From Bryoerythrophyllum caledonicum (Eukaryota > Streptophyta > Bryopsida > Pottiales > Pottiaceae), in the NCBI GenBank assembly GCA_963971425.1, contig OZ020514.1:19689406-19753405 (forward strand): a stretch of 64,000 nucleotides of DNA. Reading direction: 5' to 3'. Position 1 is the first letter of the stretch. Each line of letters opens with the position of its first letter. The notes beneath the pieces were generated by a model that searched no databases, had not been told where the DNA came from, and worked only from the letters and a program-made list of their open reading frames with translations. The position numbers and the translations under genes were made by a program. Positions 28,236 to 64,000 of this stretch are shown in pieces.

Positions 28236-28440
28236 TTTCTGGACTATGAGGTGAATTTTGGACTAAGGACTAAAAGAAAGATCCGGAGATGTGCCTCATA
28301 AAAGATAGTGAAGCATAAAAGTCGAGGAGTTTAGAGTACTATTCAAGCATTAAATGCATCACCAATGACACTTATGAAGGAAGAAATGGCTAGAGCGACC
28401 AAATTTGAATTTAGACAATACGTGAGTCCGTTGCATGCAG

Positions 28441-28626
28441 CCGGATATCTCCGGGTAAATATCAAGGTGGAATTCAGAAGAAGAACCGAGTCCTGAGAAC
28501 AAAAATTAATGGACATACTGTACATCACAAATGTGTGGTTGAGAAAAATGTAGTAGGCAAAAATGGGACAGAGTTGCGGATAGAAAATACTCGCAATTGA
28601 TAGAACATGCAACCGGATATCTCCGG
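28441..28626. repeat. Two CCGGATATCTCCGG variant sites
   Basis: 28,441-28,454 and 28,613-28,626 carry the palindrome with one change (GATATC for GAGATC). They are the leftmost members of the site family and help to set the left limit of copy A. Confidence 0.7.
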
Positions 28627-28742
28627 ATGAAATCAGAGTAAGAGTCCAATACTAAATTGTTTCATTATAAAAAAGTGTCATACAATAAATAAAGGGTGGC
28701 CGTTGCTAAAAGGCGCGTGTAATCTACGGAAAATCGATTCAA

Positions 28743-29198
28743 CTATTCTAATTTTAGTGCTTTACAGATGCCCTCTACCCGTCCAGTATGGTGTCTCCCA
28801 TAAGTTAGATAATGAACTATAGCCTTTCTAGGATTCTTGAATGGATCTAGATCTGCAACAACAACACATTTGGGCCACAAATAATGCCTTGTTCGAGGAT
28901 TAAATGAAGCCTTCTTGAAGATGTGGAGAAACCTAACATAGCTGGGCCTTCGAGTCTGTTTGCTGGCATAGCAAAAAAGAATATCTGATAAGATGTCTGG
29001 GGGCAATAACACTTGGGCCGCCTCCATGAGCCTATCTGGACGCATAGGAGACCAGATCCCGACATTGAAATACCGCAGTAGTATTCGAATAACATGTGCG
29101 GTGTCATCAAAGGAAGGCAGCTGCCCGGATTGGGACTTGGCCGAGTCAAGGACCTCGTCCGAGCAGAGAGGACCACGGAGAGATATGATTATGACCTG
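28743..29198 (-). CDS. Extra FCP1/NIF-like exon
   Basis: Minus-strand text YFNVGIWSPMRPDRLMEAAQ followed later by VVVADLDPFKNPRKAIVHYL resembles the middle and end of an FCP1/NIF phosphatase domain (family pattern: F-VGIWS ... LIDDSPxK ... NPxxAI). An acceptor TTTCGCAG at about 29,199 precedes VIIISLRGP. Upstream, in the presumed intron, is a perfect CCGGAGATCTCCGG at 29,287-29,300. It lies 350 bp past the end of the main ParB-FCP1 gene on the same strand and has no counterpart beside copy B. It could be a second, diverged FCP1-like gene or a relic from an older element copy. The upstream exons were not identified. Confidence 0.45.
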   Translation of the reverse strand, partial: QVIIISLRGPLCSDEVLDSAKSQSGQLPSFDDTAHVIRILLRYFNVGIWSPMRPDRLMEAAQVLLPPDILSDILFCYASKQTRRPSYVRFLHIFKKASFNPRTRHYLWPKCVVVADLDPFKNPRKAIVHYLTYGRHHTGRVEGICKALKLE

Positions 29199-29547
29199 CG
29201 AAATAGATGGCACGACCATAGAATTAGAAATTGAACATTGAAAAGAAGAGAAAATATGGTAGGAGGAACTCAAGTCACATCCTGGACCGGAGATCTCCGG
29301 GTGCCCCTCCCAGACCAACGTTCTGCAGTGGAAATGGTCAGGAGAATACTCAATAGAGTTCACAAATATTAAGGGTGAAGTTTGGGGGCGAGACACCAAC
29401 AATAACAAATAAAATGAAGGACCTCAACAAATAACGTTACTGACAAGAACATTTGTCTTCAAAATTGAAAGGTCAAAATCCGACAGACATTCATGACGAA
29501 ACATTTACAAAGCATAGAGTTAATACTATCCAATATATTTCATTGTT

Positions 29548-30221
29548 CTAAGGCGCCGAAATTATGCCCTTCACCACGGAGCGAGCCTGAGTGGAATTTT
29601 TGTCTACTGGATCACTGACAAACTTCAATTGATTCCGTCTAACAAAGTCGGGAACATCCTCATTTGACGCTAGCAGTCCGGAGAGCCATGGGAGAAACAT
29701 GGTGGTCAACCAGGCTTCACCCAAATTCCCAGTCCATGATGGCGGATGAACTGCGCTGAAGGGATCATTAAGGATGTTCTTTAGTGGGGTATCGTCCACA
29801 AGCAAGACATCTTTAGGAGATGTGGGCGACGCTTTGCTATTATAAACTGTCAGGTCCTTTAGGAAAATTGGCTTCTTTGGATGAGATGGAAGCATATATG
29901 ATGTTTTTGTGCAATCGGCCTGTGTCAGGATTCTGGCGCCTTCCGGAATGGTAGCACCTTTCTTGCGCAACTCCTTGATGATATCCACAATATTCTTTTC
30001 CAGTACACAGCTCCAGAATGAGACAGTAGCCTTCTCTCCCACAAAGTTCAGGATTTCAGTGGAACCAGGCCTTACTTTGATGTCTCTCGGTTGTCCCTGT
30101 TTGAATTCCCCCCTGTGCACAAGAACTCCATTTAAGTCAAACACGACATGATAAACCCGTTGTTGTGTTACCTGATCCTCGATTGGAGGCTCTCGGACGA
30201 TCGTCGTAAACTTCTTCAGAC
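29548..30221 (-). CDS. FCP1/NIF-like phosphatase domain exon (copy A)
   Basis: HAD-type motifs in order: VVFDLNGVLVHRG (motif I), KVRPGSTEILNFVGEKATV then SFWS (motif II region), PIFLKDLTVYN, and DVLLVDDTPLKNILNDPF (the DD motif). FCP1/SCP/NIF phosphatases dephosphorylate proteins such as the RNA polymerase II C-terminal domain. Motif I is normally D-x-D-x-T/V; here it is D-L-N-G-V, so the first Asp is kept but the second is Asn, which should weaken or abolish catalysis. The exon begins after TTGGGTTCAG and ends with a stop at 29,548. The same end is seen in copy B, so it is the true C-terminus. Confidence 0.7.
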
Positions 30222-33200
30222 CTGAACCCAAAATACGAGTACGTCGGCTGAGATGAGGAACTTGTACAGCTTAGAGAAATTGCAAAGATACATATAAAAG
30301 TGTCCCGCACTCACAACCCAGAAATGCTCGATGAAAGAATGAGCACTATATAGATGATGGCACGTAAGTATGAATGTCCATATTAGGCACCTGGGACAGT
30401 AGGTGTAGTATCCCTAGAAGTCTGAGCTACACCAGCGACTTCAGCAGTCTCTGCAAGGTTTCTGCCACCGACATCCTTCGACTGTGTTGATCCGGCCGAC
30501 ACCTGAATACCAGTAATGTAGTGGTAAGAACACGGTCTGCAGAGAGTGCACTGTCTTGAGAACAATCAAGAAGGTTTGATGGACAAGTAACTGTTCACCT
30601 TATCTTTCTGGGCCCTTGTCCGAACTGTAGGCGGAGGAGGAGGAACTTTAGGCACAGGATTCTTCGCGATTGCCTTCTTCTTCTCTTTTTGAGCTAGCTG
30701 CCCGTGGCTCCGTGGAGGGCTGCGCGGAGGGCTCATAACCTGTAATTCACGCAATGTTTGTTGCGCCGATGCCTCATCCATCGTGTGATCAGTGTCACGC
30801 AAAGTCAGGTCCTCGGCAGTCTTGGACACAACTTCTACTTCAAGACGCGTCATGAAAGGGTTGTCCAGCGGGAGATCTCCGGGTGCTCTGTGGGTGTGGT
30901 CGAACTCCAGGCGATCGGACATTGCCGTGTCATCGTCCAGATCTGGCGGAGGAGAACGTTGCCTATCGGAATGCGAATTGGTTTCCATTTGAGAGGGACG
31001 CCGTCTACCGTCCAGAGTAGAGTCGCTTGTTGAACTAGGCGAGGCACGTCGGACAGCAAGATGTGGTTCATCATCGTTTACCTGCAATGGGTCGATTGGG
31101 GTGCCCGCACCGATGATCCGAGCGGCTGTAGCCAAGGACTCGAGTCTAAAATTGGGAACCGCTGATGAACTTGGTTCATTCCGCACATCAACATCAAGCA
31201 TCGTGGCATCAGTCGTCTGCGTCACATTGACGAAGTCAGTGTGGAATACATTAAAACGCAATACGAAATGAAACGGTATCATACACCCGGAGATCTCTGG
31301 TTCAAAGTTGTCCGAGTCTACCGGGGGAACTAAAAATAAACATGGCAATGATAAAGACGAGTCCTAAAGAATGGAGGGCATCCGAATGGAATAAACATCC
31401 GGAGATCTCCGGGTCAGGTAGTATCCGTAGGCGTTATACCTCGCCGGTGTAATTCATCCTCGACATAGCCCGTGTTTGAACCCCAGCGCCTTGGGTCGAC
31501 TCAGTGATGTCAGTCTCCACTAACTCCTCAGGATCGGCGTCGGTAACGTCGGCTAAGATATTCAAGTGGAATTTGAATATTTGTTCTGCGCAGGATTTGG
31601 CATTTACTTTGGCATCTTCGCTGTTCAAAATCTCGAGGACCCGCGCGTCGTGAGTCTGCAAACCAAAAAAAAATTAGGACGACGATATCCAATTCATATA
31701 ACTATATGCGGACCGGAAATCTTAGACATTGGATTGCTTGGGAAGGATGTCTTGCTTACCAAGCCGAGGTATGTAATATGTGGTCCTCCATGAACATTGA
31801 CGACCACCATACCCTCTCTGATGTATCCCGTGAACAGCGAATCGAGGACCGAGATCCTCAGCTGTGGGACACCGGTTTGCTTCCAGCGCTGGATGGTTTC
31901 TTTATGTTGAGCGGCTGAAAAGAAGGCCGGCATTTTTTCGGGGTGGCCTTTGAAGAGCCTCTTGAATGACTGAGCAGGCATCTCGCTTGAATCGTATTCA
32001 TATAGGAATACGCAGTATACTGTCTCCTCGACCCCAATTACTGGAACCGGAAATCCATCACCAGGGTGGGGGAAGTAGTAGACGACATGCGTTGCCCACA
32101 ATTTTACCTTGCCTCTGGACTCTCTCTGCCGAAGACTGATGTACCTCTTTAATTCAACGAATCCTGCGACGTCAGTGATAAGAACCGACGGTGATCTGAC
32201 CCTCGTCCGCCCGTCCTTCGTGTCCACTTCGAGATGGTCAAAAATGGTTCTGAAGTCAAACACATCTAGCACCTGTGCACGGCATATGTCGTCTTTAACG
32301 CGGTAAAGGAAAAAGAAGTAAAAGTGAGGGTCAGTGACGTTACGCCACTGCTGAATGTCCGGCATGATAAGTACTTCGGCGATCTCGCCCCCTCTGTCAG
32401 GCATAACCCTGCAGGTGTATTTGGAGTCGAACAGGGACGTATCATCCGTCGGTGTGGCCTCGGCAGCATCTTCAATGATGTGTTGACTCCAAATGGACAC
32501 GAGGAAGTCTGGAGTGGGGTCGGTATCCTTGTTTATCGCCTTCAGTCGACCCTCAAGCCAAGCTTTACCCTTGGCAGAGTGATTAGCGGCGTCGACCCAG
32601 AACTCGAGCTAGACCCTTCCAATATTCCTGTCTTCGGCAAATGCGTCCCACTGCTCCTTCGTGTATGGGACGAAGTCAGCAGACTTCGAGGGAAGGGGGT
32701 GCGACTTGTATTTAAGCATCAGTTCATTCTTCATAGCACGGACTCTCTTCTCTCTGTTCGCCGCGTTTTCGAGAGTCTCGGCCTGCCCTTTCATAGTACC
32801 TTGGTTTGCCGCTTTGGAGGACTTCACACAGACCTTCTTCTCGAGCACTAATTCCGCGAGGTAGTCTAGGTCTTCAGTGCGCATTTTGTAAAGAGGCTTG
32901 AAGTCGTTCTGCACCAGAGGTTTCCGCTTCAACTTAACAGGGTCCCCCGTCTTCCCGTTGGAGTCTGGTAAGACTCCAGCGACGAACAGCCTGTCGATTC
33001 GGATCCACTTCTGGACCACCGCATCATCCATCTCAAATAGAAGTGGGACCTTCGTGTCTTTGGGGTCTGTTTTACCGAGGTGTGTAAAAACCGTTGGCAC
33101 CACTTGCCGTTGGAACGTCTACAATGAAAACAATTACAGGGTGTAAGCAGCCGGAGATCTCCGGATGATTGGTTTGGTTGCTGTGAGGATAGAGCACATC

Positions 33201-36130
33201 CACGGAATAAAAAATATTTTCAGGTTAAGAATGGTTATTTACCGAGAATGCGTTAGATTGAGGACGAACATACAGTTGGGGGGCTGGTTTACCGAACTCA
33301 AACCACTTCACTCTGCACGTCTGCAGCTGCTCAGTGAAACTCTGCTCCTTCCGCAAACCCGTCAGATCTTGGTTAAGAGCGCGCGAGAGCTGTAGCAGGG
33401 TCATGTCTTTGGGGTCCGGTTTTGTCCAAACCGGGATGATAGAGAAGTGGGAGATCTCTTCGAGCGTCCACGTTGCTGGCAATTCGTGTGACAGAACCTT
33501 GTGCGCCACCACAGTATGCTGACCTCCGATAATGTAAAAGTGTGTCGAGTCCCTCAGGCAGTCCTCCTTCGTCGGCTTGGTCGCGAAAAACTCTACCTTA
33601 CTTCCTTCAGGTTTCTTCTTCAGTGGCAGGACTCGAATGTGAATCTCAGGTGCCGTGGCTTTCGAAGATACGCGAACTGCGTTGATAATTCCTTCAAGCC
33701 GTTCTTTCTGGATGCCCCTATATACTAATCCTCCAGGGGGGGCCCGGTGCAGCTTATCGAAATGAACGAGCTTCACGACATCCTTCTTCGTGTCAGGGTC
33801 TTCTACTGTCAAAGGCTTATTATTGTGTATGTAAACGTTTTTGAACGCGTCGTCGAGTACCTTACCAATTGCTTCCACTTCAGTCCGCTTCATTTTGGTG
33901 AGGTCAGCCTGTGTGAAGTTCAGGCACCTTTCGATCGCGAGGCCAGGCTCATCGGCCTTCGCTTTCTTCCCCTTCTCCGCCCGCGATGAAGAACCTGGGG
34001 TCGAAGTCTTCAAGGTGGTCTTGCGTTTTCTTGCCAAGGTCGATGCTGGTGTCAGAGACAGATTGGGAGTTGCGTCTTGAACGGGCATTCGGGACTTCTC
34101 TTGTGCTTCAGCCATCCACTTCCACTGCTCATTCACGTACTCCGGATACCACGTATCACCCGTTGGAGGGGCAAATAAAAAGTTCTCACTCTGGCAGGTC
34201 TCCACCATCTCATCCGAAATCTTAGATGATTCAAGGATCAAGCCGTATATATGTGGCTCGGTGGAGGAGTCCACGTTCTCCTGGACGATAACGAGACTGA
34301 CCTCGTCATCAAGACCCTGCAACTCGAGAACCTGGAGACCAATGTCGGGGTGACCCTGTTTGCCAATCCGAAGCTGAGGGACGAATTCCCAGGCACCGTC
34401 AGGGGTTTTAATGAGCTTGATGCCCCACTGGGTTATGCTCTTTCGGCAATTGTATACGTAGCCGACATTGTGTATCCCTCTGTAGACAAACTCAGGGAGC
34501 CAATACTCTACAAATGCCCCAAGTTTCCCGGGTCGACATTCAGTCGGAAGTGTGGTTGTCCACGAATCCCTGCAAGATGATTTTGAAAGAACACGCAGGT
34601 AGTTTAGAATCGATGCAATTGTCTGGTCAATAACAAGAATCCGAAACAAAATCACCTGACAAGTTCCTAGATGTTGAAACCATGAATCGTGCTTCCAAAT
34701 CTGTATCACAGTGCCATCAGGGGACAATACCCGGAGATCTCCGGCTGATTTGGGGAAGTCGAGTGCATCCGACAAGGAACGAATCCTGGCTGCTTTGACG
34801 GGTCTATTTCTGACCTGAACCGGAGATCTCCGGTTAATGACCCCTCAACGCGAATTTCCACTGTTTCGATACGTCCGGAGATCTCCGGCTGCTTTCGAGA
34901 ATAACTAACGCCTGTATAGGGAATACATATTCATCTGATCGCTACATCATCCGGAGAACTCCGGCTGATTACTGGAACTCCGTATTTTCAGCCGGAGATC
35001 TCCGGCAGAAGCACGTACGGCACTTCGAAGCACTAATCGGATCATATCAGGACTCGAATATTTACATTCATTTACAGAGAGGTTTGCCGTGTAACTCTTG
35101 AAGTTTGACATACTTAAATAACAAGTTACATAATTGAGAACATAAATATATGTATCAAATGAGCTCACACAATTCTGTTATAGCTCGACCTTACACACTA
35201 GAAGAAGAATCCGCTAATGTTTCGATGGAACGCCAAATTTGACGACTCTACATGAATTTAACTATATACATTGAATCGAACTAGACTCGACAGACTCAGT
35301 GAAGAAAAACACATTCAAACATTCCTGGAATTCCAAAATCATTCGCATATTCATGAATAGATATACAAATATGTTCACGGGACAACAAAAAACCAATCGA
35401 CTATAGCCAAACAGACAACTGAATTCTAGTACGCAATTTTTGAGGTTTTTCAAAATCATTCAAGTGTTCGTCCACTCCGAAATTAGAACTAATTCGGAAC
35501 TCACTCAAAAAAAGGAAACCCACCTGGTCGCCCGGACTGAGCATAAACAGTTCGATTGTGTATACTTACCGGTTTCCATCCCATGCAATCTCATCCGACG
35601 TCGCTGCTGTAGTCGCCATTTTGCAATCTCCTCCAGTAACTGCTCTGGATTAAAGCGTATACACAACTCTGCACTACATAAGCATTCAACAACTCAGAAC
35701 GACAAACTATACAATCTCTCAAATGCCCTAGAATGTATGGTCCAGTTCTGACATACAGGAATTCGGTGGAATAAATTTCAACACTGCATAAATTGCTCAA
35801 TTACGGCCCTTCGAAACTGAATGCACAGAACACTATAACCCTAAATCCTAAATCCTTCTATTTCGCTCAAACGATTATCAAGATCAGTACTATTCGACTC
35901 TCTCGAACCCTAATGAAGCTTACCGAACCCTACACCTGCTCCAATGACGATTCTATGAAGTCCTGTGCAAATTCAACTGAAATTTCACTGAAAGCCATTT
36001 TTGAGACTTTACATACCTCTTCACTTGCTGAATCGGCGCACCCGTACGTCGTGGTCGTTCGTGTTGACGCCACCCTCAACCGCAACGTCGTTCACTCTTG
36101 GTTGCTGAACCTAGGCGCTCTTCAACTCTC
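29548..36130 (-). CDS. ParB-like/FCP1-like fusion protein gene, copy A (multi-exon)
   Basis: Proposed coding exons on the minus strand are 34,569-33,243; 33,118-31,760; 31,655-31,440; 31,216-30,599; 30,502-30,391; and 30,221-29,548. Every junction is GT-AG and the phases agree (0,0,0,0,1), giving one chain of about 1,434 residues. Small upstream exons are likely at 35,668-35,570 and 34,700-34,656, and a 5' leader ends at 36,017. The ParB-like motif HFYIIGGQHTVVAHKVL lies in the first large exon, after an STPGSSSRAEKGKKAKAD linker. The last exon is FCP1/NIF-like. The second large exon has one in-frame stop (about 32,610) that copy B lacks at that place. Every intron holds a perfect or altered CCGGAGATCTCCGG. 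The join to the 5' exons is unresolved (phase mismatch). The protein is probably nuclear because of the Lys-rich linker; its role is unknown. Confidence 0.6.
30599..31216 (-). CDS. Proline/serine-rich linker exon (copy A)
   Basis: 206 codons of low-complexity, probably disordered text: Ser/Asp-rich start (TTDATMLDVDVRNEPSSSA), RRRPSQMETNSHSDRQRSPP, then SPPRSPPRSHGQLAQKEKKK and VPKVPPPPPTVRTRAQKDK. The last part is basic and could be a nuclear-localisation region. A CGGGAGATCTCCGG near-site (30,869) lies inside this exon and is read as APGDLPLD. In copy B a retroelement has inserted into the same exon. Confidence 0.55.
31760..33118 (-). CDS. Second large exon, unknown domain (copy A)
   Basis: After TFQRQVVPTVFTHLGKTD comes a 453-codon exon with a charged, helical middle (ANREKRVRAMKNELMLKYKS) and a C-terminal part rich in strands (VKLWATHVVYYFPHPGDGF, YCVFLYEYDSSEMPAQSFK, GMVVVNVHGGPHITYLGL). 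The same text is found in copy B with mostly conservative differences, so it was protein-coding when the copies split. No family recognised. It holds one in-frame stop near 32,610 in this copy. The exon ends at donor CTTG|GTAAGCAAG. Confidence 0.6.
33243..34569 (-). CDS. Exon with ParB-like domain (copy A)
   Basis: This exon is flanked by acceptor ATCTTGCAG and donor TCTCG|GTAAATAA; both sites are conserved in copy B. It starts DSWTTTLPTECRPGKLG. A basic Ser/Thr-rich linker runs to about residue 220, then a helical segment (NFTQADLTKMKRTEVEAIGK). Then comes the ParB-like core: QKERLEGIINAV, strands IHIRVLPLKK, FYIIGGQHTVVAHKVL, ISHFSIIPVWTK and a helix LLQLSRALNQDLTGLRKEQS. ParB/sulfiredoxin folds use G-x-H/R for nucleotide or substrate binding. 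In bacteria, ParB is a CTP-dependent clamp that loads at palindromic parS sites. The assignment is by motif only. Confidence 0.55.
34731..35005. repeat. Cluster of five CCGGAGATCTCCGG sites (copy A leader)
   Basis: Sites start at 34,731, 34,820, 34,875, 34,951 (one change) and 34,992. Copy B has a matching cluster (61,500-61,816) with similar spacing. The cluster lies just upstream of the first large ParB exon, within the presumed 5' introns of the minus-strand gene. Dense palindromes here suggest binding by a protein encoded by the element; this is inference. Confidence 0.85.
35570..35668 (-). CDS. Probable small 5' exon of the ParB-FCP1 gene (copy A)
   Basis: Between acceptor AGTGCAG and donor AACCG|GTAAGT the frame reads LCIRFNPEQLLEEIAKWRLQ then QRRRMRLHGMET. 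Copy B (about 62,395-62,495) keeps IRFDPEE-LEEVGKWRLELERRMRLHGKET, with differences mainly at third positions and conservative residues, as expected for coding sequence. It is a helical, basic segment. A further 45-bp exon at 34,700-34,656 (LEARFMVSTSRNLS) is also kept in copy B. The link from it to the next exon is not in phase by my reading. Confidence 0.5.
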
Positions 36131-36556
36131 TTCCTAACGCATTCGCTCTCTTTCAGTCCTACTCTCTGACCTTCAGTCCATATCCAGTTAACAACCTCTC
36201 CACGGCACGCTCAACGTCCCTCACATAAATCAACACTCACCTCGCACACCAACGGCCTCTCACAGCGCATACGAAACTAACCTAATGCGTCGACGCCGAC
36301 TCCGCAAACCAAGAAAGAAAACCCCTCCCGCCACTTCCGCTCACTACCTTCGACATTACGAAGACAAAAGCCAAAAAAATCCAGAAATGGTTCATTCTTG
36401 GAGTTCCCAAAACCCAAAGAGGACAAGTTGGACGGCTCAAGGGTGTGACGGCTCATGATGACAGTGGGTGAAGTTAAAAATCAGCTGAAATGACGTACAT
36501 GTACAACGTGTCCATTTCACAATCATGACATTGTCAATGTCGTGAGCATGCGTGAG

Positions 36557-36690
36557 AAGACGTATTGATACCCGGTTTCATGGGTATTACATATGACTAT
36601 AATAGATACTCGGGTTCACCGGGTATTAGAGTAATAATTATACTTGAATTTAAAACGACATTAGTGGAAAAGCTGAATCTCCCTTTCCGT
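36557..36690. promoter_or_regulatory. Conserved inverted-repeat block upstream of the ParB-FCP1 gene (copy A)
   Basis: GATACCCGG at about 36,568 and CCGGGTATTAG at about 36,620 form inverted arms, with a second partial arm TACTCGGG between. The block is retained almost unchanged before the CT-rich repeat in copy B (63,427-63,520). It lies upstream of the gene on its strand, so a regulatory or element-end role is possible. No TATA box can be assigned with confidence. Confidence 0.45.
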
Positions 36691-37925
36691 TACTCTCCCT
36701 CCCTTCTTTCCCTCACTTGTTTTTCTTATTTTTGTTCTACTCTCCCCTCCTTCTCCATCTCCATCTTTTTTTTAATCTTGATTCTAATATTTTTTAGACT
36801 CCCCGTGAGTTCAATAATTACACATTCTTAAATTAACTTACCACTCTAAAAAAATCCCTTACTCTCCCTCTCTTACTCTTCCTCTCTCTTACTCTCCCTC
36901 CCCATCTCTTTTTTACATTTTATTTTATTTTTAGATTCACCTTATTACATATTCTAAAAATTTAAACCACTCTAAAAGTAATTCTCTCAAGTCTCTCTCT
37001 CTCTTACTCTCCCTCCCTTACTCTCCCTCCTACATGTTTATTTATTTATTTTAGTTTTACTCTCCCTTCCTTCTCAATCTCCATCCTTAGTTAATAATAT
37101 TGAACTATTGTAATAATATTTTTTAACTATCCTATTCTTTCCCTCACTTGTTTTTCTTATTTTTGTTTTACTCTCCCCTCCTTCTCCATCTCCATCTCTT
37201 TTTTAATCTTGATTCTAATATTTTTTAGACTCCCCGTGATTTCAATAATTACACATTCTATAATTAACTTACTACTCTAAGAGAATCCCTTACTCTCCCT
37301 ATTTTACTCTTCCTCGCCCTTACTCTCCCTCCCCATCTCTTTTTTACATTTGATTTTCTTTTTAGATTCCCCTTATTACATATTCTAAAAATATAAACTA
37401 CTCTAAAAATAAATCCCTCAAGTCTCTCTCTCTTACTGTCCTTTATGTCCCTTCTTTACTCTCCCTCCTACTTGTTTTTTACTTATTTTAGTTTTACTCT
37501 GCCCACCTTCTCCATCTCCATCTCTATTTTACTTTTGAATTTTTAAATTTTTGGATTTCTCCTTATTTCAATAAATTCACATTCTAAAAATAATGAACTA
37601 CTCTTTAAAACAATCCCGCACTCTTCCTCGCCTACTCTCCCTAGTATCCCTTACTTTCCCTATCCCTTACTCTCCCTCATTTACTCTCCCTATCCCTTAC
37701 TCTCCCTCTCCATCTCTTTTTTACATTTTATTTTATTTTTAGATTCCTCTTATTACATATTCTAAAAATATAAACTACTCTAAAAGTAAATCCCTCAAGT
37801 CTCTCCCTCCCTCCCTAACTCTCCCTCATACTTGTTTATTTATTTATTTTAGTTTTACTCTCCCTATTTTATCTCAATCTCCATCCTTAGTTAATAATAT
37901 TGAACTATTGTAATAGTATTTTTTT
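36690..37925. repeat. CT-rich tandem modules (TACTCTCCCTCCC family), about 2.5 units
   Basis: A module of roughly 440-480 bp that contains TTACTCTCCCTC runs, TTCTCCATCTCCATCT, TTTTTAGATTCCCC and TTACACATTCT recurs starting near 36,690, 37,130 and 37,490. The same module begins after copy B at 63,540 and runs to the window end. The tract is strongly pyrimidine-biased on this strand and could form triplex or other unusual structures. No coding content. Confidence 0.8.
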
Positions 37926-38089
37926 TTCTATCCCATTGTATTACATTATTCAAATTAATGCATAGGTTTCAAATATATATTCATATTTTATGTAGATTGT
38001 TGTTACCTTTTTTCTTAAATACTTTGTGACATAAAAACTACATGAAAATGGTTGATTTAATGTGTTGCAAACCAAGCGCCAACTCCTAG
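37920..38089 (+). mobile_element. 3' end of a Helitron-like element
   Basis: It matches the last 170 bp of the element at 9,732-10,591 (ATTCATGCATAGGTT..., TTTATGTAGA, GTTGTTACTTTTT, ATACTACATTAAAATGGTT family) and ends CTAG at 38,086-38,089. A hairpin GTGTTGCAAACCAAGCGC precedes the end. It inserted into the CT-rich repeats, which resume after 38,300. Confidence 0.5.
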
Positions 38090-38299
38090 TCATACTACTA
38101 AAATCATAATTTGCGCAGTAAACCACGGAGTGAACTATCACGTAGTCAACCATGCAGTGAACTACAAAAACGCTACAATCAACTGCGTTGTCAACAATAT
38201 AGTGAACCATTCCACCTTTTACTTTTTAATACTTTTTAATATTATAAATACATAAAAATGGTTGGGCTAATGCATTGCAAAGCAAGCGCCAACAGCTAG
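38090..38299 (+). mobile_element. Short Helitron-like element (210 bp)
   Basis: It starts TCATACTACTAAAATCATAA right after the CTAG of the previous end and itself ends CAACAGCTAG, with GCATTGCAAAGCAAGCGC before it. Almost the same length and layout as 9,523-9,731, including GCGCAGTAAACC-type internal units. The T after CTAG fits Helitron targets. No genes. Confidence 0.6.
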
Positions 38300-38569
38300 T
38301 CTACTCTAAAATTAAATCCATTACCCTCCTTCTCTTCTTTATTCTCTCTCTAAATAAATTATAATGTATCAAAATAAATAGTTATTGTTCAATTCTCGCT
38401 AAATTTCCTTACACTCTATAGTATCCAGGATTTTTTTAAAAGTTATGGTTATCGATGAACTTAAGGTTATAGTTCATAGTTATAAAATATTTTTAATTTA
38501 TACATTTATAGGTGATATAAGCCCTCAACCTTCATGAACTCAGACCCCTCCACGGTGAACCGTGAACCC

Positions 38570-38755
38570 TGAATCCTTAACCCTAAACCCTAAAACCGTG
38601 AACTAGAAACCGTGAACCCTAAACCCTACACCGTGAAAACCATGAACCCTAAAACCTAAACCCTAAAACCCTAAACCCTAAACCCTAAACCGGACACATT
38701 AAACCCTAAACCCTAAAACCCTAAAACCCTAAACCCTAAAACCCTGATGCACAAT
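38570..38755. repeat. Interstitial telomere-like repeat (CCCTAAA/CCCTAAAA)
   Basis: About 20 near-tandem units of CCCTAAA or CCCTAAAA, interrupted by CGTGAA and CCGGACACATTAA spacers. CCCTAAA is the plant-type telomere repeat. The array is impure and lies between repeats, so it is internal rather than a chromosome end. It may derive from telomere-healing or from insertion of such repeats. Confidence 0.85.
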
Positions 38756-38759
38756 CCAG

Positions 38760-39800
38760 CCTGAACACGGAAGCTGTACCCGAATTCATAGGACCGGGTT
38801 GTTGTACTTCTTAAAGCATCTGCTCAGTTATTTGTGCACGTTTCTTCTCAAGCATGCATATAACTTCTGTCGAACTAGGAAATATTGGAGATTATTCTAA
38901 TTGGTAACGAACGCGGATGTTCTACTTGAGTCTTGTATTGCTTGATGAACAATACTAGTAGGCAGCAGAGGGCCGTCTCTTTTCCTTGGGAAGGGTATAA
39001 TTTAATTAACAAAGGTGAGTACGAGAAGTCCTGTACGATTACAATTTACTGTGATTTAGTCTAAGACGTGATACGGCCCTAGTATATTCAAAGATACATC
39101 ATGGGGCATACTTCATCATCCGTTTTCAAATTTGCACCACTCTAGGAACTAGATGGTATCCTTACAATACGGTCATCCCATGAGTACGAGCCTTTCATTA
39201 TCATGAGTGGAATGTGGCCTCGGTCGTGGGCACGTCGAAGAATGCGCACAATCATGATGGTGTACAGCAATTAGTTTGAAGGAGCATGCATGCCCAAGAT
39301 TCGTTTCAAATTTGAGCGTCTGAATTTTCCCTCCACGAGGTGATGGAAAGGTGGATAAGAGTATCCTTCAACTCAGCTCTCATCCTTTTTTGCTATGGAT
39401 GTTTGAGATACTATGGGAGCTGAGCGAGTCAGTGACAGTGTTCGCTTGCGCGACATCGTGCTAGATAACTATAGGGAAACGAATCGACATTATTCCAGGA
39501 ATGTTAAGTATGTTCCCTCGTATAATTCCGTATTCGTTGGCTGTCTGTGAGGATTGGTGTAGATTGTGTTGCATTCTGTCCTCTGAGTCGATCGGGAGCT
39601 CTCGTGTAGAGATTTTTAAACTAATTCGTCTCCGAAGATACAGTCATAGCCCTGAAGCAGTAAATTTAGTCGACTCGAGTATATAGATGACGTAATTGCT
39701 TGGCGTGTGAATCCGAACTGTTAACCGGGTTTTGCAACTGTATCACACCGCCATACCCGCGAATATTTCGTACGGCTGTTGATTTGATCAAGGCCAAAAA
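38760..39800. other. Non-coding stretch before the transposase gene
   Basis: No recognisable domain in any frame. The base composition is closer to the transposase gene than to the AT-rich left part. It probably holds the upstream region of the transposase, but no core promoter could be named. Confidence 0.4.
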
Positions 39801-39806
39801 ACTCAA

Positions 39807-40016
39807 CCGGAGATCTCCGGCTGTTCATGCCGTGATATTCTGGATTCTACCAATCTCGCCCAGTAACCACGGTTTCACCCCTTGATTCCAGTGGCTGTTA
39901 GAATCATCGAAAGCAGGATTCCCGGAGATCTCCGGCTACTTCTGTTCTGTTCTCTCGTTTAATCAAACAAGAAGTCGTCGTTGTTGATCATTCTCCACTC
40001 TACCGGAGATCTCCGG
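39807..40016. repeat. Three perfect CCGGAGATCTCCGG sites upstream of the transposase
   Basis: Sites start at 39,807, 39,922 and 40,003, at 308, 193 and 112 bp before the proposed ATG. The last base pairs after each site are often CTG or CTA. Clusters at this place and before the ParB exon suggest binding in both leaders. Confidence 0.85.
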
Positions 40017-40114
40017 CTATCCCTGCCGACGATATTGAGGTTGGTCATCCAAATCGACACAACATACACACAATTTCTCATTCAGGACATCAGCCACCAA
40101 CCGAGAATCCACCG

Positions 40115-43100: not shown

Positions 43101-43586
43101 CATGAGGGAGGTGAAAATCCGCTAGGATCGCTTCCACAACCATTGGATGTCACCCCCGAAGATGAGGTTCTCGAGCCTTACTGTGGACCCACCAATGAAG
43201 CCCCAAAGTCCACATTTAATCCTTGGCGTGATATTCGTCTCGGGTCCTGGATTTTAGTTAGACCTAGTGATCCAGACATCTATCATGTCTGGCAGGGTAG
43301 AGCAGTTTCGGACGTCGTCAGGAATGAGGGTAATGTCAACCACGGAAAATTCCTCGTTAAGTATTGGGAGCCTGATAACAAGCAGAAGAATCTAAAGCGG
43401 AAGTACCAGGACTGTTGGGAAGCCACTTGGGTTCCGGACCAAAAGAAGCCTGTATGGTGTCATGTGAGTTCTGTTTTGTTTGCGACTTGGTCATACAAAG
43501 TTAACCAACTCACGAGATCCATTCCACGTAAAATGAAGGAAGCAGCGCTTGTGAACTTAGAGAAAGCGAATGCCGCTGACCCTTGA
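40115..43586 (+). CDS. DUF7869-type DNA transposase, two exons, looks whole
   Basis: Exon 1 is 40,115-41,443 and exon 2 is 41,649-43,586. The intron has donor GAT|GTACGT and acceptor TTTTGCAG, is in phase 0 and is 205 bp long. The product has about 1,088 residues. The N-terminal part is acidic (SDSDWWESDSEDLA), followed by a Cys-rich segment (CCPIRCCQYF), a helical stretch and CSTCDEFNQF. The presumed RNase H-like core has VIHDKMDTAKTALPRM, LFLQLNNSAKDNKNQYL and VGHTHEDIDAYFSHL. Family members usually read LDN where this has LNN, so one predicted catalytic Asp is Asn. The C-terminus carries W-rich text (IYHVWQGRAVSDV, YQDCWEATWVPD). It presumably moves the element by cut and paste. The start was chosen as the first ATG of the long frame. 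Exon 1 includes one palindrome (40,530) read as TGDLRS. Confidence 0.75.
41444..41648 (+). other. Intron of the transposase gene, containing a palindrome site
   Basis: GTACGT...TTTTGCAG. A perfect CCGGAGATCTCCGG sits at 41,520-41,533. Reading through the intron would add about 40 codons and then stop, whereas splicing restores the frame TNDSYDLPPVSQSTVSRV, which aligns with the decayed homologue at 13.6 kb. Confidence 0.7.
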
Positions 43587-43678
43587 TTCGGTGATCAGTC
43601 CCAATACCTAAAATTCTGTTGTGTGAAGTTCTGTTTCTGAAAAATCTCGTCGAGTCTCTTTGTCCTCACGGAGGAGCA

Positions 43679-43982
43679 CCGGAGATCTCCGGCTGTGAAG
43701 ACTATTATTTTCTGGTCCAGAGTTCGACATCCCTCCTATCAGCTCTCGCCACTTTTCGTGAAGAGAACCGGATTTGAGCTCTTCCATTCACTGTTATTAG
43801 GATACATTGAGTAGTGACACAATTATTAATGAGTGGTTTATTCCACCGGAATATTTTCAGACCCGCATATCTTATAGAACGCTTACCGGAGATCTCCGGG
43901 TATGGAAGACAAATTTCGTGGTCGGACGAATGTTCATGTATTGCCTTATTCAAGTGGGTGAGATCTAGCCGGAGATCTCCGG
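43679..43982. repeat. Three perfect CCGGAGATCTCCGG sites after the transposase
   Basis: Sites start at 43,679, 43,886 and 43,969. A further damaged copy lies at about 44,073 (CCGGAGATCTTCTG). They occupy the presumed 3' flank of the transposase gene. Confidence 0.85.
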
Positions 43983-44918: not shown

Positions 44919-45124
44919 AGCTCTTCAGAGAGGTAGTGCAAGGATAGAATTTGTTGTTAGATCCACGAATTTTGCTCAGACCAGTCACTACTTTTTCCTA
45001 CATTTGGTCTTGTATCACTGAAACCATCCGGAGATATCCGGCTGAATGATTGAAATAAATTAACTGGGTATCCCTTTCATATTCTTTGGTGCGACTATTT
45101 TACGAGACTAAAATCCTTCTTCTT

Positions 45125-55506: not shown

Positions 55507-55511
55507 CTTTG

Positions 55512-57516: not shown

Positions 57517-57842
57517 GCATGCCAGAATGCCAACTGGTTTCCTTTTCAGACGTACCCAGTCTAGCGTCCGGAATAGAGTTGCTTCTCGAACTAGGCAAGG
57601 CTTGCCTCATAGGAAGAGGTGGTTCATCATCGTGTACCTGTATGGGGTCGATTGGGGTACCTGCACAGATGATCCGCGCGGCTGTGGCCAAGGACTGGAG
57701 TCCAATGTTGGGTGCCGCTGATGAACTCGGTTCATACCGCACATCAACTTCAATCATCGTGGCATCAGGCGTCTGCGTCACATTGACGAAGTCAGTGTGA
57801 GAAATATTAGGATGAAATACAAAAGAAAACGGTATGATACAC

Positions 57843-57856
57843 CCGGAGATCTCCGG
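57843..57856. repeat. Palindrome site in the copy B intron
   Basis: Perfect CCGGAGATCTCCGG, matching the altered site at 31,287 in copy A. It lies in the intron before the linker exon. A damaged second site is visible at about 57,955, in place of the perfect site 31,399 of copy A. Confidence 0.85.
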
Positions 57857-58410
57857 TTCAATGTGGTCCTTGCCTATCGGGTGAACTATATCTGAGCATG
57901 GCCATGAGAAAGAAGAGCCCTAAAATATGGAAGGCATCCTAAACGTATGAACAGCCAGGGATCTTCGAGTCATGTAGTTTTCTTAGCTGTTATACCTCGC
58001 TAGTGTAGTTCATCCTCGACATTGCCCGTGTTAGAACACCATCGCCTGGGGTTGACCCAGTGATGGCAGTCTCCTCTGCCTCCTCGGCAGCAGCGTCGGG
58101 TACGTCGGCTAAAATATTCAAGTGGTACTTGAATATTTCTTCGGCCCATGATTCTGCCTTGAGTTTGGCATCTTCGCTGCTCACAATCTCGAGGACCCGC
58201 GCGTCGTGAGTCTGCAAGATAAAACCTGCGTAAGGCGTCATCCAAAACATATAACTGAAGACAGACCAGAAATCTAAGACGTTGAAGTGCTTGGGAAGGA
58301 TGTCCTGCTTACCAATCCGAGGTATGTTAAATGTGGTCCACCATGGACATTGACGACCACCATATCCTCTCTAATGAACCCGGTGAACAGCAAATCAAGG
58401 ACCGAGATCC

Positions 58411-59670
58411 TTAGCTGTAAGACACCGGTTTGCTTCCAGCGCTAGATGGTTTCTGGATGTTGAGTAGCTGAAAAAAGGCCTGCATTTTGTCCGCATGGAC
58501 TTTGTAGAGCCTCTTGAATGACTGAGCAGGCGTCTCGCTCAAGTCGTATTCATACAAGAAAACACAATACATTGCCCCCCCGACCCTGATTATTGGGGTC
58601 AGAAACCAATCACTTGGGTGGGGGAAGTAGTAGACCACATGCGTCGCCGACAATTTTACCTTGCCCCTGGACTCTCTCTGCCGAAGACTGATGTACCTCT
58701 TCAATTCAACGAATCCCGCAACATCGGTGATAACAACGGACGGTGATCTGACCCTCGTCCTCCCGTCCTTCGTGTCCACTTCCAGATGGTCGAAAATGGT
58801 TTTGAAGTCCAACGCATCCAGGACCTGTGCACGGCATATGTCGTCTTTCACGTGATAGAGGAAAAAGAAGTAGAAGTGAGGCTCATTGACGTTACGCCAC
58901 TCCTGAATGTCCGGCATGATAAGTACTTCGGCGATCTCGCCCCCTCTCTCTGGCATAACCCTGCAGGTGTATTTGGAGTCGAACAGGGACGTGTCATCCG
59001 TGGGTGTGGCCTCGGCAGCATCTTCAACGATGTGTTGACTCCAAATGGACACAAGGACGTCAGGGCTAGGGTCGGTGTCCTTGTTGATCGCCTTTAGTCG
59101 ACCCTCAAGCCAAGCTTTACCCTTGGCAGAGTGATTAGCGGCGTCCACCCAGGACTCGAGCTGAACCCGTCCAATATCCCACTCTGCCGCAAAGGCGTCC
59201 CACTGCTCCTTCGTGTAAGGGACGAAGTCAGCAGCCTTCGAGGAAAGGGGGTGTGACTTGTAATTTAACATCAGTTCATTCTTCATTGCCCGGATTCTCT
59301 TCTCCCTGTTCGCCGCGTTTTTGAGTGTCTCGGCCTGCCCTTTCATAGTACCTTGGTTTGCCGCTTTGGAGGACTTTACACAGACCTTCTTCGCGAGCAC
59401 TAACTCCGCGAGGTAGTCAAGGTCTTCAGCGCGCATTTTGTAGAGTGGCTTGAAGTTGTTCTGCACCAGAGGCTTCCGCTTCAGCTTAGCTGGGTCTCCA
59501 CTCTTCCCGTTCGAGTCTGGCAGAAGTCCAGCAACGAACATCCTATCGATTTGGATCCACTTCTGGACCACCGCGTCATCCATCTCGAATAGAAGAGGGA
59601 CCTTCGCGTCTTTTGGGTTAGTTTTGCCGAGGTGAGTGAAAACCATCGGCACCACTTACCGTTGGAACGT
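58411..59670 (-). pseudogene. Second large exon of ParB-FCP1 gene (copy B)
   Basis: 414 open codons from 59,655 match the copy A exon and show the text VQLESWVDAANHSAKGKAW, where copy A has a stop. It is preceded by acceptor ATTGCAG at 59,671. The frame is lost near its 3' end compared with copy A. Confidence 0.6.
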
Positions 59671-59702
59671 CTGCAATAATATATAACTCAGTGTGTGAGC
59701 AC

Positions 59703-59716
59703 CCGGAGATCTCCGG
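59703..59716. repeat. Palindrome site in the intron between the ParB exon and the second large exon (copy B)
   Basis: Perfect CCGGAGATCTCCGG; the counterpart in copy A is 33,151-33,164 in the same intron. Confidence 0.85.
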
Positions 59717-59792
59717 TATATTGGATTGGTTGCTTGAAGAATGAGCGCATTGATATAATTGAAATATATTCAGGCGGAGGATGTAAGCTTAC

Positions 59793-61110
59793 CGAGAATT
59801 CGTCAGATTGTGGACGACCATAGAGTTGGGGGGCTAGTTTTCCGAACTCAAACCACTTCACTCTGCACGTTTGCAGCTGCTCGGTAAAACTCTGCTCCTT
59901 CCGCAGACCCGTCAGATCTTGGTTCAGAGCGCGTGAGAGTTGTAGCAGGGTCATGTCTTTGGGGTTTGGTTTGGTCCAAACCGGGATGATAGAGAAGTGC
60001 AAGATTTCTTCGAGGGTCCACGTTGTTGGCAGTTCGTTTGACAAGATCTTGTGCGCCTCTACAGTATGCTGACCACCAATAATATAAAAGTGTGTCGTGT
60101 CCCTAAGGCAGTCCTCCTTCGTCGATTTGGTCACGAAGAACTCCACCTTAGTTCCGTCAGGTTTATTCTTCAGAGGCAAGACTCGAATGTGAATCTCAGG
60201 GGCCGTGGCCTTCGAGGACGCGTAAACTGCGTTGATGATTCCTTCGAGCCGTTCTTTCTCGATGCCCCTGTACACTAATCCTCCAAGGGTGGCCCTGTGT
60301 AGGTTATTGAAATGAACGAGCTTCACAACATCCTTCTTCGTGACAGGGTCTTCTACTGTCAAAGACTTATTCTTGAGTTTGTAAATGTTTTTGAACGCGT
60401 CGTTGAGAACCTTCCCAATTGCTTCAACTTCAGTCCGCCTCATTTTGGCGAGGTCAGCCTGTGTGAAGTTTAGGCACTTTTCGATCGCGAGGCCAGGCTC
60501 ATCGGCCTTCGCTTTCTTTCCCTTCTTTGCCCGTGACGAGGAACATGGGGTCGAAGTTTTCAAGGTGGTCTTGCGTTTTCTTCCCGGGGTTGATTCTGGT
60601 GTCAGGGACAGAATGAGAGTCGAATTTGGGACGGGCTTTCGGGACTTCTCTTGTGCTTCTGCCATCCACTTCCACTGCTCATTAACGTACGCCGGACTCC
60701 ATGTATCACTCGTGGGAGGGCCGTATAAGAAGTTCTCATTCTGACATGTCTCCGCCATCTCATCCGATATCTTAGATGTCTCCAGAATCAAGCCGTATAT
60801 GAGAGGCTTGGTGGATGAGTCCACGTTCTCCTAGACGACAAGGAGGCAGACCTCGTCGTCAAGACCCTGCATCTCTAGAACCTCGAGTCCAATGTCGGGG
60901 TGTCCCTGTTTGCCAATCCGAAGTTGGTGGACGTATGTCTAGGGTTCTTCAAGGGTTTTCAAGAGCTTCATTCCCCACTGGCTAATGCTCTCTCGGCATT
61001 TGTAGACGTAGCCAACATTGTGAATTCCTCTGTAGACAAACTCAGGGAGCCAGTACTCTACAAACATCCCAAGCTTCCCGGGACGACTTTCAGTCGGAAG
61101 TGTGGTTGTC
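59793..61110 (-). pseudogene. ParB-like domain exon (copy B)
   Basis: 378 open codons from 60,824 include the ParB-like core HFYIIGGQHTVEAHKIL, LHFSIIPVWTKPNPKDM and LLQLSRALNQDLTG. The N-terminal part (SCRDSWTTTLPTESRPGKL) is in another frame at 61,253-60,939. Donor AATTCTCG|GTAAGC at 59,792 matches copy A. Differences such as VVAHKVL/VEAHKIL show protein-level constraint before decay. Confidence 0.65.
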
Positions 61111-61352
61111 CACGAATCCCTGCAAGATGAGTTCGAAAGAACACAAATGCAGTTAGAAATCACTACAATTAACCGGTAACCTATGGGGAGTCCGTCACTC
61201 AAAACCGGTTGTATTCCTAGAGATGGATGATAGAGAACGAGCTTCCAAATCAATTATTTACTGCCCCAACTAGGGGAGGTCTTCGCACAATTATCAGATC
61301 TACAGACACTTGAATTATCTTAAATCGCTTGAAGTATCTTGCATGCACTCAA

Positions 61353-61816
61353 CCGGAGATCTCCGGTTCGGCAGGCAAGATCTGTAGTCGTCGTGAGGGG
61401 ATATCGAAACTTACTTGAAACGTCCCGAGATCTACAGCTCTATGTCGGATTGTGAGCAGCAATGGCGTTCGTTTTCGTTTAATTCCATTGCGAAAGTAAT
61501 CGGAGATCTCCGGCTGATTTGTGGAAGTCGTCTGCATTCGTCTAGGAACGATTCGGTGCAAATCAGTCGGATCCATTTCTTTCATGAACCGGGGATCTCT
61601 GGATAATGACCAGAATGACGAGTTTCACAATATTCACATCGTCCTACGCGCGTATATGCACTTCTTCGTATCGTCCGGAGATCTCCAGATATTTTCAAGA
61701 TTTACTAAATCGTGGATATATATTTTAAGACTCATCAAACCTCGACATTATCCGGAGATCTCCGGCTGATTATTGGAACTCCGTCTTCCGTTCGGGGTGC
61801 AACCGGAGATCTCCGG
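61353..61816. repeat. Cluster of six palindrome sites (copy B leader)
   Basis: Sites start at 61,353, 61,500 (one change), 61,589 (two changes), 61,675 (one change), 61,752 and 61,803. Spacing parallels the copy A cluster (89, 86, 77, 51 against 89, 55, 76, 41). Confidence 0.85.
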
Positions 61817-63426
61817 CTGCAGCAAATACGGAATAACATTGCACTAATCGCTACTGACCATCACGCGTATATTCACATTCATTCACAGAGAAGTTTGACA
61901 TACTACTCTGGAAGTTTTACATACTCAAAATTCATGTTTCAAATTAGAAAACACAATGAGACGTATCAAATGCTCACACAATGCTTTCAATAACCGACCT
62001 TACACACAGGAAATTGAACCTGCAAATGTTCCGATGGAACGCCAAATGTGACGTTTGCACATGGATTACTCTTGTCATTAAATCGGACCGGACTCGAAAG
62101 ACTCAGTATGGACAAGCACATTCTAACATTCGTACAATGCCATAATCACACGCATATACATGAAATGAAACACACTTCTGTTCATGGGACATCAAAAAAT
62201 GAATCGACAATAGCCTAATAGATATCTGAAAACTAGTACTCATCTTCTGAGGTTTCTATTCATTATTCAAGTGTACTTTATTGTCATACACCTGCTCAAA
62301 ATCAAATGAACAAACTTGAATCACAATCAAATAAAGAATCCACACACGGTCGCTCGGACACAGTGGACACAGTTCAATGTTGTGGACTTATCGGTCTCCT
62401 TTCCATGAAGTCTCATTCGACGTTCCAGCTCCAGACGCCATTTCCCAACCTCCTCGAGGAACTCCTCGGGATCGAAGCGAATTCACAGCTCTGAATAACA
62501 TCAACAATCAACAACTCAGCTTTTTAAAACCTACAATTTTTCATATGCCCTAGAATTTAAGGTCCACATCTGATTGACAAGATTTCCGCGAAATAAATTT
62601 CAACACTGCTCATTTACGGATAACATGCCCATTTAAACGCATAACATCCATAACATGCTCGTTTACGGACCTTCTATACTGAATGCACTGAACACCAGAA
62701 CCCTATACCCTAAGTCCTACAATTCCGCTTCAACGTCTAACAAATTCAGAATTACTCGACTCTCTTGAACCCTAATGGCGCTTACGGAACCCTACACCTG
62801 CCCCAGTGCCGATTCTAAGCAGTAAGCAACTACGATACTTGATGACACTGAATTTTACTCTGTGAGAAAGTACATACCTCTTCACTGACCGATTTGGCGC
62901 ACCCATTCGTCGTGGTTGTTCGTGAAGACGCCACCCTCAACCGCAACGTCGTTTCCGCTTCGCTCGTGAACCGAGACGCTCGCAAAATTTAAATGCCTAT
63001 TTCAATATCTTTGTTCCAGTCCTGCTCTCCGACCTTCAGTCCATATCCAGAAACAACGTCTCGACGATATGCTCAATGTCCCTCACTATTATCAACACTC
63101 ACCTCGCACACCGACAGCCTCTCACAGCGCACACCGCCCTAACCTAATGCGTTGACGCCTATTGCGCAAACCACGAAAAAAACCCCTCCCGCCACTTCCG
63201 CTAACTACCTACCACATTACAAAGACAATAACCATAAAAAACAAGAGAGGTTTGATGCTTGGAGTTCCCCTAACCCGATATGGACAAGCTGGACGACTCA
63301 AGGGATGTGACGGCTCATGATGACAGTGGGTGAACTTAAAAATCAGCTCTAATCACGTACATATACAACGTGTATATTTCACAATCATGAATTGTCAATG
63401 TCGTGAGCATGCGTGACAAGACATAT

Positions 63427-63520
63427 TGATACCCGGATTCCTGGGAATTACATATGGCTACAGTAGATACTCGGGTTCACCGGGTATTAGAGTAATCATT
63501 ATACTTGAATTTAAAACGTC
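63427..63520. promoter_or_regulatory. Conserved inverted-repeat block upstream of the ParB-FCP1 gene (copy B)
   Basis: GATACCCGG ... ACTCGGGTTCACCGGGTATTAG, nearly the same as the block in copy A. Conservation outside genes suggests a role for the element. Confidence 0.45.
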
Positions 63521-63539
63521 ATAAGTGAATAAGCTTAAT

Positions 63540-64000
63540 CTCCCTCTCCGTTACTCTCCCTCCCTTCTTTCCCTCACTTGTTTTTCTCATTTATGTTTTG
63601 CTCTCCCCTCCTTCTCCATCTCCATCTCATTTTTAATCTTGATTCTAGTAATTTTTAGACTCCCCGTGATTTCAATAATTACACATTCTTAAATTAACCT
63701 ACTACTCTAAAAATAAATCCCGCACTCTTCCTCGCTTATTTTCCCTCCCTATCCCTTATTCTCCCTCACTTCCTTACTCTCCCTCTCTATCTCTTTTCTA
63801 ATTTTGACTTTTTTTTTTATTCCCTAAATTTCCCTAGTGGCATATTCTAAAAATATAAACTTAGACTTTAAAATAAATCCCTCCCTTACTCTCCCTCACT
63901 TACTCTCCCTCTCTTCCTTATTCTCCCTCCCTTACTCTCCCTCCTACTTGTTTTTAATTTATTATACTCTTACTCTCCCTCGCTTACTCTCCCTCCTATT
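63540..64000. repeat. CT-rich tandem modules after copy B
   Basis: Same TACTCTCCCTCCC / TTCTCCATCTCCATCT modules as at 36,690-37,925. The window ends inside them, so copy B may continue to the right, where a second transposase gene would be expected by analogy with copy A. Confidence 0.8.

Follow-up and report, generated by a model that had tools for sequence, protein, structure and literature searches.

DNA transposons that carry ParB-like genes are already known. The Ectocarpus giant DNA transposon Sola1-1_Ec32 bears a gene joining a ParB-like domain to a DNA methyltransferase, on the strand opposite its transposase; its authors propose that the product binds and modifies its own element, and similar ParB-like proteins are cited for green and red algal transposons (PMC12477816). 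A second point of reference is VANC, the anti-silencing protein encoded by Arabidopsis VANDAL transposable elements, for which binding and loss of methylation were shown (PMC5735166, PMC10398659). We analysed a 64,000-nucleotide stretch ("the window", C1:19689406-19753405) of the 437-Mb Bryoerythrophyllum caledonicum genome, which comprises 894 contigs. It holds two related copies, copy 1 and copy 2, of a giant DNA transposon (family A) in which a DUF7869-type transposase gene is accompanied, on the opposite strand, by a predicted ParB-FCP1 fusion gene and a 14-bp palindrome, CCGGAGATCTCCGG (palindrome A), recurs. Judging from sequence, we consider it moderately probable that the family encodes a sequence-specific self-recognition protein acting on its own palindromes, mainly for expression control.

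The closest published case is the ParB-methyltransferase gene of Sola1-1_Ec32 (PMC12477816), and an earlier note's remark that this set of parts was known from no described eukaryotic transposon must be narrowed accordingly. As far as the available part of its description goes, Sola1-1_Ec32 shares with our family a giant element and a ParB-like fusion gene opposite the transposase, an arrangement found in the window and in a copy at C1:49.97M, where the fusion is a splice model. Unlike Sola1-1_Ec32, the partner here is NIF/FCP1-like, with no methyltransferase among the Pfam matches of the copy-1 open reading frames (ORFs) scanned (exons 2, 3, 5 and 7), and the same part of the Sola1-1_Ec32 account mentions no dedicated palindromes, unlike family A. 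Our literature search found no fusion of FCP1 and ParB. In partial searches, neither an FCP1-like partner nor family-specific palindromes appeared, nor, judged by titles and abstract openings, any ParB fusion in a eukaryotic transposon besides PMC12477816.

The element, its copies and its genes

A perfect 20-bp inverted repeat occurs twice in the window (28226-28245 and 45143-45162, 20/20 bases), and genome-wide this terminal 20-mer has 121 + 129 = 250 matches, compared with 0 for the reversed control. Among 100 of the 250 matches listed, we found 17 neighbouring convergent pairs less than 30 kb apart, spanning 16.5-28.7 kb; at least 16 of the 17 enclose an FCP1-like match and at least 11 a ParB match. 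The flanks of 10 pairs showed that the repeat runs 6 bp farther outward, with ATGCCA or ATGCTG at the left end, and that a 4-bp direct repeat lies at the outer edges of 8 pairs (0 of 90 cross pairs), the other two agreeing at 3 of 4 bases. A target duplication of TTAA or TA, read from the window alone, was wrong, as these flanks shift the end outward by those 6 bp. Copy 1 and its relatives are a DNA transposon with terminal inverted repeats (TIRs) and a fixed-length target duplication. The earlier note had proposed that the parts form one element, whose ends an alignment of the outer edges of further copies would define. Both proposals held: ends and target duplications were found, other copies carry the same set, and a second family (family B, below) repeats it with a palindrome of its own.

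To survey the family, we scored the best 95 of 1265 candidate matches to the ParB exon and the best 150 of 2267 to the FCP1-like exon. Among the 95 ParB matches, 47, the window included, were at least 95% identical, the matched stretch was free of stops in 49, and a same-strand FCP1-like match lay 2.8-6.7 kb downstream in 76; conversely, 74 of the 150 FCP1-like matches had no partner among the 95. At the expected gene places of ten sampled close-group copies, the FCP1-like exon was found in all ten and the transposase in nine. All eight close-group copies and two palindrome clusters inspected had the TIR (2 mismatches or fewer) where the left end was predicted, while right ends were at the guessed place in 2 of 10, rightward spacing being variable. 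The earlier note had allowed that other copies might always lack one gene or the palindromes. The copy at C1:49.97M (18.2 kb, target duplication AAAT) has both genes and 21 palindrome sites; its set comprises the ParB exon, exon 3, the FCP1-like exon, both transposase exons and the further ORF.

The transposase assignment made from the letters alone was confirmed by a Pfam match to DUF7869 (PF25273) on 41634-43583 (E = 7e-44; 150.1 bits against a cut-off of 26); a literature search on DUF7869 found no publications. The window copy has lost the conserved acidic residue of an LQxDN-type motif (QLDN in other copies), which is kept in all 7 sampled copies with a visible motif (10 examined), at C1:49.97M, in the nested family-B element and in four other-clade alignments. 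We also noted, at C9:16361000-16378999, a DUF7869 clade that has an open frame of 1087 aa and occurs at several genomic places.

The opposite gene was modelled as seven exons from 35619 to 29548, one more than the six large exons counted earlier. The matching splice phases reported earlier were recovered (2/0/0/0/0/1): all six introns of copy 1 are GT-AG, and copy 2 has lost the first donor and keeps GT and AG at its remaining donors and acceptors. Because the splice sites of this model are conserved and phase-compatible, we infer a single protein encoded by the ParB-like and FCP1-like exons together. The Pfam NIF profile recognizes the FCP1-like half, as the earlier note had it, with E = 6e-12 (copy 1), 1e-13 (copy 2) and 2.8e-17 (nested family-B element). 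The ParB-like half, also claimed earlier, had no significant match in Pfam, PHROGs or NCBIfam scans, the weak matches being to PHROG 1033, ParB-like (best E = 0.011, 2 of 13 members), and DUF6551 (E = 0.029, 2 of 13); its support comes from a predicted fold. An AlphaFold model of a metagenomic homologue, P0012, built from a 13-row alignment that includes the window exon, resembles ParB, Noc, KorB and sulfiredoxin structures in Foldseek, and by this model the exon 2 domain has the ParB/sulfiredoxin core fold. The segment after the core has low model confidence, and the helix-turn-helix of classical ParB was not identified. PDB sequence searches returned no ParB or NIF chain (one search gave four histone H2B chains, none better than E = 0.84). 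No relatives were confirmed in viral contigs, nor, by ParB exon alignment only, in GTDB contigs, and Rfam gave no match at gathering thresholds.

We then compared the ratio of nonsynonymous to synonymous substitution rates (dN/dS) between copies. Between copies 1 and 2 it is 0.30 overall: 0.23 in exon 2, 0.17 in exon 3 and 0.35, 0.52, 0.77 and 0.62 in exons 4-7, with 1.65 in the 16-codon exon 1. Between copy 1 and C1:49.97M it is 0.17 in the ParB exon, 0.16 in exon 3, and 0.22 and 0.12 in transposase exons 1 and 2. The transposase and ParB exons are under purifying selection. Within subfamilies, the FCP1-like exon gave 0.78 (copy-2) and 0.26-0.35 (copy-1). Intron divergence between copies 1 and 2 is 0.24-0.29 substitutions per site for introns 1-4 and 0.13-0.16 for introns 5-6; across exons 5-7 and introns 5-6 (29548-31216 versus 45202-46617), intron and synonymous divergence is below that of the rest of the gene, which suggests gene conversion or recombination of the 3' half between subfamilies. 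Both window copies of the ParB-FCP1 gene carry internal stop codons; because of these stops and the lost acidic residue of the copy-1 transposase, the window copies are probably inactive. Other copies show none of these defects at the places sampled, and the transposase would appear to be active in some copies.

Palindromes that differ between two families

Palindrome A has 32 sites in the window at up to 2 mismatches, 20 of them exact, against 0.14 expected, and 31 of the 32 fall within 28441-61816. Genome-wide, 2718 exact sites compare with 3 for a reversed-pattern control. The 50 places listed of these 2718 form four clusters (16, 16, 7 and 11) with element-like spacing, and at least three of the four contain an FCP1-like match. 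The palindrome had first been described as scattered through both genes. Its recurrence stands, but of the 21 copy-1 sites at up to 1 mismatch, 19 lie outside the modelled coding sequence and 2 inside (P = 0.0006 for a coding model covering 45% of the element, with slightly different transposase exon borders).

A comparison is provided by family B, represented by an element nested in copy 2 at 71.09-89.87 kb (here and below, "extended" coordinates carry the window numbering rightward into neighbouring sequence). It mirrors the design of family A and is distantly related to it, its DUF7869 protein being 34.7% identical. Its ParB-like exon (motif YIINGQHSVAA) was the sole match above threshold among 431 ORFs of this element and the C9 locus (profile E = 3.3e-6), and its NIF motif reads LDLNG. 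Its inverted ends are 27 bp long and its target duplication is the 4-bp ATAT; copy 1 has the homologous site uninterrupted, at ~42640. Its palindrome is another one, the 21-bp TTTAGCTCGASTCGAGCTAAA (palindrome B), with 29 sites at up to 4 mismatches against a mean of 0 in 20 mononucleotide shuffles, and 3562 exact sites genome-wide against 0 for the control. One group of site clusters (75.06-75.56 kb) is upstream of the transposase gene, which is on the minus strand; another (81.5-82.7 kb) is upstream of the ParB-like exon. Palindrome A is absent from the nested family-B element, and palindrome B from the two family-A copies examined.

Because gene and palindrome are found together in both families, and each family has a palindrome of its own, we infer that the ParB-like protein reads the palindrome. 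In the mechanism we propose, the ParB/sulfiredoxin-fold half would bind the family's own palindrome in introns, upstream regions and subterminal parts, and binding would place the NIF/FCP1-like half, together with the middle part, at the chromatin of the element. Site clusters at both gene starts point to expression control, and the VANC system shows, in the part of the work available, that such a design can be anti-silencing (PMC5735166). The likeliest use would thus be control of the element's own expression, chiefly keeping its genes transcribed despite host silencing, by analogy with VANC; assembling the ends for transposition would rank second. A further-reaching, tentative version resembles ParB-parS self-marking. 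Each family would evolve a private palindrome along with a ParB-like protein that loads or spreads on the element, delivering a CTD-phosphatase-like domain to Pol II or chromatin; marking, protection and expression by the family would then be confined to its own copies. This version is possible, if somewhat doubtful.

Several observations weigh against self-recognition by such a protein. Concerning its fold, the Foldseek E-values are weak (best 0.019), P0012, the source of the good model, is only ~35% identical to the window exon, and the window exon itself was modelled poorly (AlphaFold, 8 rows, mean pLDDT 52.7), making its Foldseek matches unusable. The ParB-like motif is GGQHTV instead of the GERR-type box of classical ParB, so nucleotide binding may be changed. 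Likewise, NIF phosphatases use the catalytic motif DxDx(T/V), whereas copies 1 and 2, C1:49.97M and the nested family-B element have DLNG. The second catalytic aspartate is therefore replaced in both families and phosphatase chemistry may be absent; the domain may be a modified enzyme or serve as a module for binding. The FCP1-like exon is also under weaker constraint (dN/dS 0.56-0.65 between subfamilies), 19 of the 95 ParB matches lack an FCP1-like partner among the 150 scored, and C1:49.97M has extra stops in its transposase exons and exon 3. Finally, a DUF7869 locus of another clade, C9:16.37M, has no ParB or NIF match in the 18 kb examined, so the transposase is not always accompanied by a ParB-FCP1 gene.

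Three other explanations were weighed. The ParB-FCP1 protein could be a transposition cofactor whose palindromes synapse the ends or license excision, with no part in chromatin control. Variant sites inverted near both ends (28441 and 28613 versus 45028), and clusters near both ends and both genes, would fit this. Against it, the densest clusters are not at the termini but within the ParB gene (intron 1) and upstream of where the transposase is modelled to start, sites also occur deep inside introns (33151, 41520), and the family-B clusters likewise precede its genes; we regard this explanation as rather unlikely. An autorepressor that silences the element through sites at both gene starts as copies build up is less likely again: the clusters at both starts, and the many near-identical copies despite long-term purifying selection, agree with copy-number control, but repression alone would not require sites in introns and 3' regions. 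The palindromes might have another origin, such as a hairpin, a signal for replication or methylation, or a miniature repeat embedded there, with the ParB gene as unrelated cargo, but this is very improbable: the flanks of palindrome A sites are unlike one another, so that the sites are not copies of a larger repeat; a different palindrome accompanies the ParB-like gene of the second family; and, of nine sites that can be aligned between the two window copies, eight stay within 2 mismatches of the consensus in copy 2 (the ninth has four) despite the divergence of introns 1-4.

A third palindrome, GGTCGAGGCCTCGACC, with 7 sites near C9:16.37M, was set aside: its sites have a ~2-kb period, carried by a tandem array of 2-kb period beside the DUF7869 clade there, and the only other long ORF is pogo-like by eye. 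Within the window, 12382-15202 shares 71-76% identity with the DUF7869 region of the nested family-B element and is probably another family-B relative; three weak family-B palindrome sites were seen at 11900-12089.

The composite locus and its neighbours

The features of the locus are collected in Table 1. The two homologous copies align (29515-37087 versus 45169-63997), as the earlier note had seen, but the window holds one transposase gene; that of copy 2 lies beyond it, at 68.6-71.1 kb and 89.9-90.8 kb (extended), interrupted by the family-B insertion. Nor does the element fill 28250-64000, the extent first given: copy 1 is bounded by its inverted ends at 28220 and 45168, and copy 2, which begins at 45169 within its 3' untranslated region, is split in exon 5 by a Ty3 long terminal repeat (LTR) retrotransposon (~46620-57516) and runs past the window to its right end at 92753 (extended), followed by GTAT. 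The Ty3 element is young (LTRs of ~2.0 kb, 99.65% identical, GCATG on both sides), with 16-bp repeat arrays within its LTRs.

The flanks of copy 1 itself, GTAT and TAGA, do not match, while copy 2 has GTAT as its right flank, so we discarded the idea that copy 1 had inserted cleanly next to copy 2. Joining the outer flanks over GTAT recovers the empty site of the composite within a long interspersed nuclear element (LINE): the right flank carries the reverse-transcriptase motif AYADD, and the left flank carries its continuation. Because this open frame crosses the joined flanks, the composite as a whole occupies a single insertion site in a LINE. The left neighbour is not a 5'-truncated LINE, as had first been supposed: the LINE goes on beyond the far side of copy 2; this LINE-like target occupies 26414-28219 and extended 92754-93900. 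The simplest history would be insertion of an element into the LINE, insertion of a relative into that element, and then recombination between homologous left arms. Downstream of the LINE reverse transcriptase, the ORF at 26417-27124 has a PCIF1_WW-like match (E = 8e-10).

Other observations concern the element's sequence. A 30-bp perfect palindrome, TATTTCTGGACTTTGCAAAGTCCAGAAATA, at 45125-45154 overlaps the right TIR, with a similar one at the matching end of other copies, and a 120-codon ORF at 44559-44918, near the right end, encodes a very acidic protein with no Pfam match. A CT-rich tandem array with a 431-bp unit lies between the divergent genes in both copies (36678-37885 and extended 63540-64400); in copy 1 it is followed by telomere-like CCCTAAA repeats, and plant-type telomere-like repeats were seen at 38.56-38.75 kb. 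A repeat at 21573-22206 recurs inside copy 2 (extended 64693-65328, 84% identity) and has an inverted relative at 15545-16081.

Table 1. Positions of transposon features in the window
Feature	Position	Strand	Remarks
Target duplication GTAT	28216..28219	+	partner beside right end of copy 2, 92754-92757 extended
Element copy 1 (family A)	28220..45168	.	16,949 bp including terminal inverted repeats
Left terminal inverted repeat ATGCCATATTTAACTATTTCTGGACT	28220..28245	+	
Two variant palindrome sites CCGGATATCTCCGG	28441..28626	+	near left end
Probable exon of further element gene	28746..29195	-	150 aa; present also in C1:49.97M copy
ParB-FCP1 exon 7	29548..30221	-	NIF/FCP1-like domain, DLNG motif
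ParB-FCP1 exon 6	30391..30502	-	
ParB-FCP1 exon 5	30599..31216	-	
ParB-FCP1 exon 4	31440..31655	-	
ParB-FCP1 exon 3	31760..33118	-	conserved middle part, no Pfam match; one in-frame stop in copy 1
ParB-FCP1 exon 2	33243..34569	-	beta-rich N-terminal part and predicted ParB/Srx-fold domain
Five-site palindrome cluster	34731..35005	+	intron 1 of ParB-FCP1 gene
ParB-FCP1 exon 1	35570..35619	-	start codon, 50 nt, phase 2
Three exact palindrome sites	39807..40016	+	just upstream of modelled transposase start codon
DUF7869 transposase exon 1 (model)	40130..41443	+	
DUF7869 transposase exon 2 (model)	41649..43586	+	Pfam match; conserved acidic residue replaced in window copy
Three exact palindrome sites	43679..43982	+	downstream of transposase gene
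Variant palindrome site CCGGATATCTCCGG, inverted	45028..45041	+	near right end
Right terminal inverted repeat	45143..45168	-	inner 20 bp as left; outermost CAACAT agrees at 3/6 bases
Copy 2 (related subfamily), first part	45169..46619	-	FCP1-like and neighbouring exons up to Ty3 insertion; NIF E 1e-13
Copy 2, continued	57517..64000	-	rest of exon 5, exons 4 to 1, flank; extends to 92753 beyond window

Relation to known systems

Bacterial and plasmid ParB proteins such as Noc and KorB share the core fold with the predicted exon 2 domain, by model comparison, and their parS site is palindromic, with several per replicon. The differences lie in the motif (GGQHTV or GQHSVA here) and in the setting, a eukaryotic transposon rather than a replicon with ParA. 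In maize En/Spm, TnpA is an element-encoded accessory protein and transposition cofactor with short repeated, subterminal, non-palindromic sites in its own element. Our family resembles it in combining an element-encoded accessory protein with short repeated sites, and differs in the proteins and in having palindromic sites that are scattered in introns and upstream regions as well as in subterminal parts. VANDAL elements, which are Mutator-like, differ in their transposase: in Pfam, transposase exon 2 matches DUF7869 alone, not Mutator.

The likeness to VANC concerns the sites. As far as the available parts of the VANC work describe it, a short motif is concentrated in the element's noncoding DNA and rare in other transposable elements, and related families differ in motif; here, likewise, the sites are mostly noncoding and family B has another palindrome. 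The VANC21 motif YAGTATTAY is non-palindromic, with sites in one orientation, and the palindrome here differs in this respect. If the palindromes are the protein's sites, these transposons would offer natural matched protein-site pairs diverging between related families, with thousands of sites in a single genome. Sequence-specific anti-silencing or self-recognition would then reach beyond Arabidopsis VANDALs, the ParB fusions of algal transposons would gain a testable role, and orthogonal DNA-binding domains might become available whose palindromic sites are long and rare. Overall, as far as the available part of the Sola1-1_Ec32 account allows the comparison, a ParB fusion in a eukaryotic giant transposon is known already, and the FCP1-like partner and the family-specific palindromes appear to be new.

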